Source of the DNA: Synechococcus sp. PCC 7336
GTDB lineage: Bacteria; Cyanobacteriota; Cyanobacteriia; Thermostichales; PCC-7336
NCBI RefSeq assembly: GCF_000332275.1
Contig: NZ_CM001776.1
Span: forward strand, 4,648,008-4,712,007
Direction of reading: 5' to 3'
Length of the DNA stretch: 64,000 bases
Part shown: one piece after another, positions 6,818 through 12,728 of the stretch
How positions within the stretch are numbered: position 1 is the stretch's first letter
How the letters are laid out: every line of letters starts with the position of its first letter
Program-made: the position numbers and the translations under genes
Notes under the pieces: generated by a model
Databases searched by the model: none
Seen by the model: the letters and a program-made list of their open reading frames with translations, nothing else
What the model was told of the DNA's origin: nothing

Positions 6818-7735
6818 GTGGCCTCAGTGAACGATCGCATAACCGTCCTTTTTGCAGATATCTGCAACAGCACGACCCTCTACGAAACACTGGGCGATCG
6901 CGACGCCCAGCGCACCATTGGAGCATCGTTAATGCAAATGAGCGCGATCGTGCGAGATTGCAATGGCAAACCCCTCAAACTCTTGGGAGATGGCATTATG
7001 GCCGCCTTCGATCGCCCCGAAGACGCCTGTCGAGCCGCCTGCGAAATGCAAGCCCAACTGACCGACTACTTCCGAGCGGGGTCGATTCGCTCGGGATTGC
7101 GGGTGGGTTTAAACTGCGGCTCCGCGATCGCCCAAGACGAAGATCTGTTTGGGGATGCCGTCAACATCGCCGCCCGCCTAGCCGAAGATGCCAATGTCAA
7201 TCAAATTTTGACCACCCGAGAGACGATTGAGACATTGCCGCCTCAATGGCAAGAGATGACCCGCCCCGTAGGGCAGTTGTTCGTCAAAGGCAAGCGGGAA
7301 CAAGTGGAAGCGTGGCAACTGATTTGGCAAAAAGAAGGACTCACCATTGCTCGATTCGAGGTGGGCACAGCCAAGCAAACCTGTGCCGCCATAGAAGTGC
7401 GCTTGGGCGATCGCACCGAACGGGTGGATCGAGATCGCCCCAGTTTAACCATCGGTCGGGTGGAAGAGAACGATCTCAGGGTCAACCGCGATCTGGTCTC
7501 CCGCCAACACGTTCGGATTGAATTTCGCCGCAACAAAATCGTCCTGATCGATCGCAGCACCAACGGTACCTTCGTCTATCTCGACTCCGAGCAACCCACC
7601 TTCGTCCGTTGGGAAGAATTGGTATTGAAAGGCAGTGGTTGGTTGGGACTGGGACAGGAAATGTCACCCGAAGAACCGGGAGCAATTCAGTTTCTCTGCA
7701 GCCGTTCCCCCGAAGTCAGCGATCGCAGTCACTGA
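6818..7735 (+). CDS. Class III adenylate/guanylate cyclase with C-terminal FHA domain
   Basis: A 305-residue soluble fusion. Residues about 7-150 form a class III cyclase domain: FADICNST supplies the first metal aspartate (Asp14), KLLGDGIMAAF the second (Asp58), and FGDAVNIAARL the transition-state Asn116 and Arg120, so it should convert ATP or GTP to the cyclic nucleotide. Residues about 205-285 form an FHA domain (TIGRVEENDL, SRQHVRIEF, STNGTF), which binds phosphothreonine. This is the first gene of a co-directional cluster that includes a Ser/Thr kinase, so phospho-dependent recruitment or control of the cyclase is a reasonable inference. Start: GTG 6818, with another in-frame GTG at 6827. 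Confidence 0.93.
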   Translation: MASVNDRITVLFADICNSTTLYETLGDRDAQRTIGASLMQMSAIVRDCNGKPLKLLGDGIMAAFDRPEDACRAACEMQAQLTDYFRAGSIRSGLRVGLNCGSAIAQDEDLFGDAVNIAARLAEDANVNQILTTRETIETLPPQWQEMTRPVGQLFVKGKREQVEAWQLIWQKEGLTIARFEVGTAKQTCAAIEVRLGDRTERVDRDRPSLTIGRVEENDLRVNRDLVSRQHVRIEFRRNKIVLIDRSTNGTFVYLDSEQPTFVRWEELVLKGSGWLGLGQEMSPEEPGAIQFLCSRSPEVSDRSH

Positions 7736-7767
7736 GCCATCGATGCCTACCATGCTTGAATCTCCTT

Positions 7768-7822
7768 ATCAAGGCTGCCCCTCCCCTCTCCCTTGGGAGA
7801 GGGGCCGGGGGTGAGGGCCACA
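7768..7822. repeat. Half copy of the dispersed palindromic miniature element
   Basis: CCCCTCTCCC-TT-GGGAGAGGGGCC followed by GGGGGTGAGGGCCA is the right half of the element described at 26136-26409. It lies between the cyclase-FHA and FHA genes and could form a strong hairpin in a shared transcript. The left half is absent or unrecognisable. Confidence 0.6.
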
Positions 7823-7847
7823 CACTGCGCAACACAAAGGGGACATC

Positions 7848-10628: not shown

Positions 10629-10987
10629 CCCCCACTCTGCTAGGCCGCTGGCAAACCCGCAGCCTCCTATTTTGGACGTTTGGCCTGATTGTCTCCATTC
10701 CCTTCGGGATTAACGCCATTGCGATTCTGATGGCGGCCTTTATCTTCGGCTTGGGCTGGGATGCTCTCTATACCCTCATGCAAAAATTTCGCTGGGACCG
10801 CGACTGGCCTGCCGCCCTCCAGCTCTTCGCCGGTATTTGGGAAGGATTGGTACTGTGGGTCGTCTTTCCGTTTCAGTTTAGTTGGCTGCATTACAGCCTG
10901 GTGTGGCTGTCGGTGTTTGTCGCTTCCCAAAGCCTGATGCGGATCCTGTTTCCCCGCTGGCGATTTTTTGGCGGTCGCTGGTTGTAA
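10625..10987 (+). CDS. Small membrane protein of the FHA cluster
   Basis: A 120-residue protein beginning with GTG inside the stop of the FHA-flavoenzyme gene. Three or four hydrophobic segments are visible (LLFWTFGLIVSIPFGI, IAILMAAFIFGLGW, LFAGIWEGLVLWVVF and SLVWLSVFVASQSLM). The family is not recognised. Tight coupling suggests it anchors or serves the flavoenzyme at the membrane. Confidence 0.75.
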   Translation: MTPTLLGRWQTRSLLFWTFGLIVSIPFGINAIAILMAAFIFGLGWDALYTLMQKFRWDRDWPAALQLFAGIWEGLVLWVVFPFQFSWLHYSLVWLSVFVASQSLMRILFPRWRFFGGRWL

Positions 10988-11060
10988 GGTGGATGCGATC
11001 GCTGCCATTGCCGCCATTGTTGTATCGAGTATCTCTAGTGACCGAGTTTGGGGATAGGCC

Positions 11061-12728
11061 ATGCTATTGAGCAATCGCTACCGCGTCATTCAAAACCTAG
11101 GGGAGGGGGGCTTTGGCAAAACCTATCTCGGCGAAGATACGCAGTTGCCCTCCAAACCCCGCTGCGTGATTAAAGAACTCAAACCGCTCCCAAACGTCGA
11201 TGTGGAGCAGGTGCTCAAGCGCTTCGAACAGGAAGCGGCTACCCTCGACAAGCTGGGCCAGCACCATCCCCAAATTCCCCAACTCTATGCCTACTTTGCC
11301 GAAAGGGATAAATTCTATCTAGTTCAGGAATATATTGAGGGCCAAACCCTCGCCGCTAAAATCGCCACCTCCGGCCCCTCGAGCGAGATGGAAGCCTACC
11401 GCCTGCTGGTGCAAACCCTGCCGGTTCTCTGCTATATCCACCGAGAAGGGGTCATTCACCGCGACATCAAACCCGACAATATTATCTTGCGGGCGAGTGA
11501 CGGCGTCCCGGTCTTGATCGACTTTGGGGCTGTTAAAGAAACGCTGGGTCAGCCACTGACTGGCGATGGCACGGCTGCCTCTCGCTCCATCACGATCGGC
11601 ACCCTCGGGTTTATGTCTGCCGAACAGGCGATCGGCCGCCCGGTTTTCTCCAGCGATCTGTTCAGTTTGGGCATGACCGCCATCTATACCCTCACCGCCC
11701 GAGGACCGCAAAGCCTGCCCACCAATCCCAGCACTGGAGCGGTGGAATGGCGCAGCCCCAAAACCAATATCAACGTCAGCCCGCAGCTCTCCGCTGTGCT
11801 CAATAAAGCGATTCAACCCCTGCAAAGCGATCGCTACAGCAGCGCTGACGAGATGCTCGGCGACCTGCAACAGAGCTTGGGTACTGCGACCGTACCCCCA
11901 ACCACCTTCGAGAGCGATCGCAGCACCATCCCCCCCACCATCGCCGAAACCAGCGGCATTCCCGCAACCACACTAGACAGCGATTATCCTGCAGCGGGGG
12001 TGGCCAGTGCTCCTGCCCCACCAGCGAATAGCGGCGAGTCCAACAACAGTTCCCCCATCGCCCCCGGCAACATTCCCTACCGTCCGCCAGCCGCCAGTCC
12101 GAGCGGCAGCCAGCCCCACAGCAGCTCCCCATCAACCCCCAAACTGCCCCGGATTCTGGCCATTTTTGTGGGGACACCTGTCTTGCTGGCGCTGGCACTC
12201 ATTGCGATCGTGCGCGTATTCGACCGCGATAACGGGGATGTCGTCGATAATTTCGACCCAATTAAAGACAACCCCGACAACAACAACCCATCGCTCGTCG
12301 ATCCCTTTGCCCCAGAGGCTTCTGCCTGCGGCTTTGATTATTGCGACATTTCAGTCAATCCGGGGTTTCAGCCCGATCCGCAGGTGGGCACTGGCGTTGT
12401 GGGCGGTCCAATGGCTGCAAATCAGATTGTTGGAGTCGTAACAACGCCGACAGGAAAATGCACTGGATTTGTGGATACCACCCCCGATCACGCCGTCAAT
12501 TTGCAGAGTCCGTTCACCTATTTGGCCATCGGTGTGGAAAGCTCTGAAGAAACCTCGATCGCGATCGTCGCCCCCGACGGCAGCGCCCTGTGTTTTTCCG
12601 GCCTCAATCCCTATATTGAAGGCCCGTGGGCGGCAGGTCGCTACGAAGTTTATGTCGGCAATCTGCTTGGCTCGGGCACGGGACCGCGCTACCGTTTGCT
12701 CGTGACCGAAATCAATCCTGGAGGCTAG
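11061..12728 (+). CDS. Membrane Ser/Thr protein kinase (Hanks type)
   Basis: A 555-residue eukaryotic-like kinase. N-terminal kinase domain (about residues 7-275): GEGGFGKTYLG glycine loop, invariant lysine in CVIKELKP (Lys38), HRDIKPDNI catalytic loop, IDFGAVKE metal motif, and FMSAEQAIGRPVFSSDLFSLG for the APE and DxWxxG regions. A long Pro/Ser-rich juxtamembrane segment (about residues 275-365) leads to one membrane helix (ILAIFVGTPVLLALALIAIV) and an extracytoplasmic domain of about 165 residues containing CGFDYCDISV and a CTGFVDTTP segment. Next to three FHA-domain genes, it is the obvious source of the phosphothreonines they would bind. The external domain may sense a ligand or cell-wall state. 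Confidence 0.93.
   Translation: MLLSNRYRVIQNLGEGGFGKTYLGEDTQLPSKPRCVIKELKPLPNVDVEQVLKRFEQEAATLDKLGQHHPQIPQLYAYFAERDKFYLVQEYIEGQTLAAKIATSGPSSEMEAYRLLVQTLPVLCYIHREGVIHRDIKPDNIILRASDGVPVLIDFGAVKETLGQPLTGDGTAASRSITIGTLGFMSAEQAIGRPVFSSDLFSLGMTAIYTLTARGPQSLPTNPSTGAVEWRSPKTNINVSPQLSAVLNKAIQPLQSDRYSSADEMLGDLQQSLGTATVPPTTFESDRSTIPPTIAETSGIPATTLDSDYPAAGVASAPAPPANSGESNNSSPIAPGNIPYRPPAASPSGSQPHSSSPSTPKLPRILAIFVGTPVLLALALIAIVRVFDRDNGDVVDNFDPIKDNPDNNNPSLVDPFAPEASACGFDYCDISVNPGFQPDPQVGTGVVGGPMAANQIVGVVTTPTGKCTGFVDTTPDHAVNLQSPFTYLAIGVESSEETSIAIVAPDGSALCFSGLNPYIEGPWAAGRYEVYVGNLLGSGTGPRYRLLVTEINPGG

Follow-up and report, generated by a model that had tools for sequence, protein, structure and literature searches.

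A conserved fha2-flav-mem gene set in cyanobacteria encodes a predicted FHA-flavoenzyme and adjoins a Ser/Thr kinase gene in Synechococcus sp. PCC 7336

In Synechococcus sp. PCC 7336, five plus-strand open reading frames, here called cyc, fha2, flav, mem and kin, span positions 6818-12728 of the window, by which we mean the whole 64,000-nucleotide stretch of DNA analysed (positions 4648008-4712007 within a single-contig genome of 5.07 Mb). The conserved unit at this locus is fha2-flav-mem and not the five-gene set. With a little more confidence than doubt, we read this unit as a cyanobacterial module in which a membrane-associated NAD(P)H flavoenzyme would be controlled through contacts between FHA domains and phosphothreonines. 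The kinase gene of the window looks like an exchangeable add-on to this core, and the cyclase gene looks like a local neighbour encoding a separate reader.

Results

The core consists of fha2 (7848-8543, plus strand), which encodes an N-terminal FHA domain and a C-terminal cysteine-containing tail that is zinc-ribbon-like by eye; flav (8679-10628, plus strand), with an N-terminal FHA domain, a linker modelled at low confidence and a predicted two-dinucleotide-binding flavoprotein fold; and mem (10625-10987, plus strand), whose product is a small helical, probably membrane protein. When 292 genomes of the phylum were searched with flav, a match at E 1e-10 was obtained in 52; in five (G027, G085, G131, G213 and G241) it involves the FHA domain only, which leaves 47 genomes with the flav enzyme, and the matches listed all fall within the window's class. 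In a sample of 388 genomes of that class, 93 genomes matched at E 1e-60, and flav is present in all 9 of the 9 genomes of the window's order. Such genome searches cap how many candidates are scored in each genome, and a miss is no proof of absence. Neighbours were called, with profiles built in this analysis, over 113 loci (the window, 49 loci from the phylum, 7 from the same order and 56 from the class sample), and in 95 of them fha2 lies directly upstream of flav on the same strand. It was likewise seen in 79 of the best 80 of 299 named relatives, every one with a cyanobacterial title; the exception begins at a contig end, and these relatives, some of which duplicate other loci, were not added to the counts.

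The mem gene lies within the fetched DNA at 89 of the 113 loci. At E 1e-10 its profile matches 46 of the 292 phylum genomes, each of which has flav, and none of the 245 genomes outside the flav set; of the 47 flav genomes, G278 alone gave no mem match. Three genomes (G174, G255 and G284) hold two copies of each gene, one G255 flav being truncated and running into mem, and both genes are present even where they lie far apart (G068, G125). Since flav and mem stay together even when unlinked, their products likely act together. As relatedness inflates any p-value, nifH, a sporadic gene of similar prevalence, was chosen as a control; it occurs in 46 of the 292 genomes, namely in 25 of the 47 with flav and 21 of the 245 others. 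A link to nitrogen fixation was considered and rejected: nifH is enriched among flav genomes, yet it gave no match in 22 of them, one being the window's genome, and therefore does not define the module. Also set aside was an apparent flav-mem fusion in G255 (L079), a 735-amino-acid frame in which flav, missing its C-terminal part, is joined to mem; the frame resembles the product of a deletion and for that reason was not used as evidence. Recurrent endonuclease V-like and SGNH-hydrolase-like neighbours, named by eye, look like lineage neighbours, and phage families searched with flav, mem and fha2 yielded nothing at E 0.1.

In Pfam, the flav product is recognised by its FHA domain (3.9e-15; window 8796-8984, genome 4656803-4656991), and Pyr_redox_2 scores 3.4e-4, under that family's cut-off. 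No curated family of Pfam or NCBIfam passes its cut-off for the catalytic part, and no monooxygenase model of either collection matches at E 1e-3. The best sequence matches of the FHA domain in the PDB are TB39.8 (9.8e-7) and GarA (4.5e-5), with OdhI at only 0.06. An AlphaFold2 model built from 32 sequences (predicted local distance difference test score, pLDDT, 80.7; predicted template modelling score 0.70) gave structural matches spanning residues 158-625 (window 9150-10553), the FAD/NAD(P)-fold part. VIA-align placed three YpdA entries at the top (Z 23.1-23.3, the best covering 310 residues at 3.0 Å), followed at Z of about 20-22 by PvdA, a flavin-containing monooxygenase, DfoA, KtzI, thioredoxin reductase and SidA; the top Foldseek matches include SidA and PvdA. 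Thioredoxin reductases, flavin-containing monooxygenases and dihydrolipoamide dehydrogenases score nearly as high against this fold. Because all of these matches belong to one broad superfamily, the fold does not give the reaction, and comparison of the modelled fold does not separate a SidA-like from a YpdA-like reaction. The enzyme should use FAD and NAD(P)H, and GxGxxG-like motifs are found in the alignment near residues 169-173 and 385-391.

Two further features of flav bear on its possible activity and control. Among 32 aligned sequences C227 (codon 9357-9359) is the sole invariant cysteine and a conserved CxxC redox pair is absent; the single invariant cysteine argues against flav being a dithiol reductase. 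This residue belongs to the SDSCPDN motif of an invariant RSxSDSCPDNxWG stretch, in a region that is modelled with low confidence (pLDDT <50 at residues 220-234). The linker after the FHA domain (residues 113-135) likewise has pLDDT <50, and within it Thr126 (codon 9054-9056) is conserved as Thr in 91% of the 90 rows filled at this position (113 flav rows). Thr126 would be a natural candidate phosphosite, being conserved, next to a phosphothreonine reader and in what appears to be a flexible linker.

The fha2 product matches the Pfam FHA family at 5.3e-15, and its G34, R35, S55 and H58 (GR and SxxH) are invariant across 26 aligned sequences. The signature residues GR, SxxH and NG, as named in PMC1262709, are recognisable by eye in the sequences of cyc and flav. 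A linker threonine of fha2 was considered as a phosphosite and judged weak (58% of 76 filled rows). The window's mem has no Pfam match (the best among 21 members is 0.0098), and no PDB fold matches at E 0.001, which does not show mem to be a new fold. It is modelled as four long helices (pLDDT 79.9). The original prediction had called it a translationally coupled membrane protein; its 4-bp overlap with flav (10625-10628) was confirmed, and its membrane location is only predicted, hydropathy giving just two segments above the threshold used.

The kin gene (11061-12728, plus strand), an optional neighbour of the core, encodes a Hanks-type Ser/Thr kinase (residues 7-260; Pkinase 6.7e-32, with HRDIKPDN and DFG motifs read) and, in agreement with its earlier description as a transmembrane kinase, one predicted hydrophobic segment (residues 365-383). 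The roughly 170 residues after that segment belong to no Pfam family. In 5 of the 113 loci, mem (or flav) is followed on the same strand by a kinase gene that starts within 0.9 kb, namely in the window, L057, L064, L208 (the locus also named L119, from Vasconcelosia minhoensis) and L169; these represent four genera, L057 and L064 sharing one, and the intervening gap measures 780 bp in L169 and 60-177 bp in the other four loci. Three more loci (L054, L069 and L079) have a convergent kinase. In flanks more than 3 kb away, 10 kinases were found in 967 kb, a density that predicts 1.05 kinases for the slot if both strands are counted and 0.53 if only one is. The domains that accompany the neighbouring kinases differ: L057 and L064 have DUF4189 and L119 has TPR, GUN4 is encoded by the open frame that follows the kinase of L169, and the convergent kinase of L054 has WD40. 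In the kinase tree, the kinases of the window, L119, L057/L064 and L054 fall in one 17-row clade (100/99), which also contains non-adjacent kinases and does not include that of L169. From these modest counts and the differing partner domains, we read the pattern as repeated recruitment: kinases have probably been recruited more than once to one core, and a link between kinase and flavoenzyme is plausible. As side observations, the C-terminal region of kin has a stand-alone relative of 144 residues at L047:12899-13330, which is 32% identical and lies downstream of flav, 3.9 kb from its start, and the window's own genome holds a 384-residue frame with two copies of it at G000:C1:2707896-2708762 (50% and 45% identity).

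The cyc gene (6818-7735, plus strand) lies outside the conserved core. By its catalytic domain (residues 5-168; Guanylate_cyc 8.3e-17; PDB relative Ma1120, 3.6e-18), the product is a putative class III nucleotide cyclase, with a C-terminal FHA domain (1.3e-10). The other 8 genomes of the order gave no match at E 1e-10, and at 1e-15 only 6 of the 292 phylum genomes, the window's included, had one. Beyond the window, near-full-length relatives occur in G085 and G241 only (40% identity; 292 genomes); the G085 copy (L263) keeps the cyclase-FHA architecture. Neither genome has the flav enzyme in the 292-genome search, and the 19.5 kb fetched around the two cyclase loci hold no flav, mem or kinase gene. 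Because these orthologues sit in genomes and loci without flav, we regard the cyclase gene as independent. It adjoins flav in 1 of the 113 loci, and a weak cyclase match lies 8-10 kb off in two others. At both L263 (13834-15510) and L264 (4454-6148), a protein of 559-565 residues with a weak FHA-type match is encoded about 3-4 kb from the cyclase, next to a peroxiredoxin-like gene named by eye.

These distributions bear directly on the original prediction, which had described five co-directional genes, for a cyclase, two further FHA proteins, a membrane protein and a kinase, and had inferred a closed circuit. All five frames were found at the coordinates given, on the plus strand and with the predicted domains, in agreement with Pfam except that the fourth protein has no family, and from cyc to kin they are separated by 112, 135, -4 and 73 bp. 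The genome holds 13 FHA matches, three of them within this stretch (cyc, fha2 and flav, each exceeding the Pfam cut-off); by a simple random-placement estimate, about 0.001 such triples within 6 kb would be expected. The gaps between the genes hold no plus-strand terminator-like site, in a scan that yields no more sites than shuffles, and the promoter and terminator scan of the locus as a whole was no better than shuffles. The proposed co-occurrence of FHA-flavoenzyme, FHA-cyclase and kinase held in part: same-strand kinases follow the flavoenzyme in the five loci described above, and the FHA-cyclase stands beside it in the window alone. In relatives, fha2, flav and mem are largely kept together, and cyc and kin are mostly separate from flav.

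Further genes surround the five. A TauE/SafE family permease gene, tauE (12784-13488, plus strand), begins 55 bp after kin on the same strand, was left out of the cluster as originally described and may be co-transcribed with kin. It is followed on that strand, within 12784-17338, by genes for an SsuA-like binding protein, a transport permease and an ATP-binding cassette (ABC) ATPase, a content that suggests a sulfonate-type uptake locus. A sulfur role for the core, considered on the strength of tauE and the SsuA-like ABC system, was rejected: tauE has no match in sets of 49 and 87 other flav loci. Directly upstream of cyc lies an IS4-family transposase gene (5262-6617; NF033590, 5.4e-129), preceded by genes for a TIR-domain protein (4444-5022; PF13676, 2.8e-17), which matches the Thoeris type III protein ThcB4 weakly and far under the cut-off, and for a CDGSH iron-binding zinc finger protein (2752-3423; PF09360, 3e-19).

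Discussion

Gene content, conservation, the co-occurrence of flav with mem, fold class and the enrichment of kinases were all computed directly; catalysis, a membrane complex, phosphosites and a direction of control are inferred. In the mechanism that we favour, flav would work with the small helical mem protein at the membrane. The FHA domains of flav and fha2 would read phosphothreonines placed by Ser/Thr kinases, and such reading would recruit or switch flav; the phosphothreonines might sit in a kinase, in the linker of the partner FHA protein or in some third protein. The downstream kinase of some lineages, the window included, may be a dedicated writer, and kinases encoded elsewhere would serve in lineages without an adjacent one; cyc would be a separate reader that stands upstream here by happenstance. 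If this is correct, the redox chemistry of phototrophs would itself be under direct FHA-kinase control. Given their near-perfect co-occurrence, flav and mem offer biochemistry a concrete target, for example in Nostocales, where carrier genomes are many. A further proposal, which we put forward tentatively and with more doubt than belief, is that this is an undescribed membrane-docked flavoenzyme module that takes different kinases by lineage (with the unassigned C-terminal region, TPR, GUN4 or DUF4189), in which case varied signals would control one conserved redox reaction.

Several observations weigh against such kinase-dependent control, or against the constancy of the core. No kinase adjoins flav in 105 of the 113 loci. 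The kinase slot was chosen after the loci were seen, and kinases were found with a profile derived from proteins related to the window's own kinase; counted by genus, P for the slot is 0.002, or 0.016 without L169, whose contig has interrupted flav and kinase frames and an open frame that starts within the kinase domain. In 18 of the 113 loci fha2 is not directly upstream, two of these being contig ends (L226, L251) and three having fha2 about 5 kb upstream (L219, L220, L223). All nine of L071-L079 are among those without it and make up most of one clade; they are part of a second flav clade with about 40% identity to the window flav and mem close downstream, and both clades occur together in some genomes. 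The mem gene is directly downstream of flav in just 55 of the 113 loci, and many loci of one family have it upstream in divergent orientation. In the window itself, flav has lost most residues surrounding Thr126, and fha2 retains just part of its cysteine pattern and has N-P in place of the signature N-G. Some of these points would also be expected if the FHA domains served a constitutive membrane assembly of a conserved fha2-flav-mem core, with no kinase-dependent switch and with kinase adjacency incidental: the empty slot in most loci, the dependence of the kinase enrichment on four genera and the divergence of fha2 at the usual N-G position. Against this stand the invariant GR and SxxH residues of fha2 and the enrichment of kinases in the slot over the flanks, and we consider constitutive assembly rather unlikely.

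Control through phosphothreonine reading differs in turn from the five-gene circuit of the original prediction, in which the kinase would respond to a signal from outside the cell, all three FHA proteins would read the partners that it phosphorylates, and cyclase and flavoenzyme would thus be controlled together. Five co-directional genes with short gaps and no terminator-like site between them, and three FHA domains beside one kinase, are what such a circuit would predict. The orthologue distribution of the cyclase speaks against it as part of a conserved unit, and same-strand kinase adjacency is confined to 5 of the 113 loci. What survives of the tie between FHA proteins and kinase is the association of fha2, flav and mem and a kinase frequency above the flank expectation; we regard the full circuit as improbable. 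A chance gathering of unrelated signalling genes by mobile elements is a very remote prospect. The IS4 transposase just upstream would fit it, as would the flav tree, in which 7 of the 8 order-mates fall in a different clade from the window; the eighth (L169) branches next to the window's group, and the position of the window is itself unsure because it is joined to another long branch, L058. The recurrence of the fha2-flav order across many families and the almost perfect flav-mem co-occurrence already contradict such an origin for the core, and for cyc and tauE it may still apply.

Searches of open-licence papers listed no account of an FHA-flavoenzyme module. By fold only, the catalytic part of flav comes closest to the YpdA bacillithiol disulfide reductases (Z 23.3), from which it differs in its N-terminal FHA domain and single invariant cysteine, with 13-14% identity and about 150 residues of the catalytic span unaligned. 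The N-hydroxylating monooxygenases PvdA, SidA, KtzI and DfoA match its fold at Z 19.5-21.9 over 362-379 residues; sequence identity to them is 12-16%, and no family model matches.

As far as we know, actinobacteria provide the best-described cases in which FHA proteins and kinases control metabolism, and we know of no flavoenzyme fusion among the mycobacterial and corynebacterial FHA-Pkn systems. GarA, EmbR, Rv1747 and OdhI, with their Pkn kinases, resemble the present case in that FHA proteins or FHA-enzyme fusions are reported as kinase targets; their partners and phylum are different. The genes of FHA proteins cluster with those of Ser/Thr kinases in M. tuberculosis, according to PMC1262709, and FHA, GUN4, TPR and WD40 are listed as kinase partner domains in a cyanobacterial kinase survey (PMC2176072). 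Within cyanobacteria, SpkG and ferredoxin 5 of Synechocystis offer a likeness in that a Ser/Thr kinase is tied to a redox protein, the partner there being a ferredoxin and here an FHA-flavoenzyme. We take spkG to be part of the ferredoxin 5 operon, and to our knowledge that operon has no equivalent of mem. At the fha2-flav-mem core, a kinase gene follows on the same strand in the window and four more of the 113 loci. According to PMC7363133, ferredoxin 5 (slr0148) and ferredoxin 4 share one operon, and the paper cites work titled on the interplay of SpkG and Slr0151 in ferredoxin 5 phosphorylation. The nearest functional parallels to fha2-flav-mem would be the actinobacterial kinase-FHA pairs and SpkG/ferredoxin 5.

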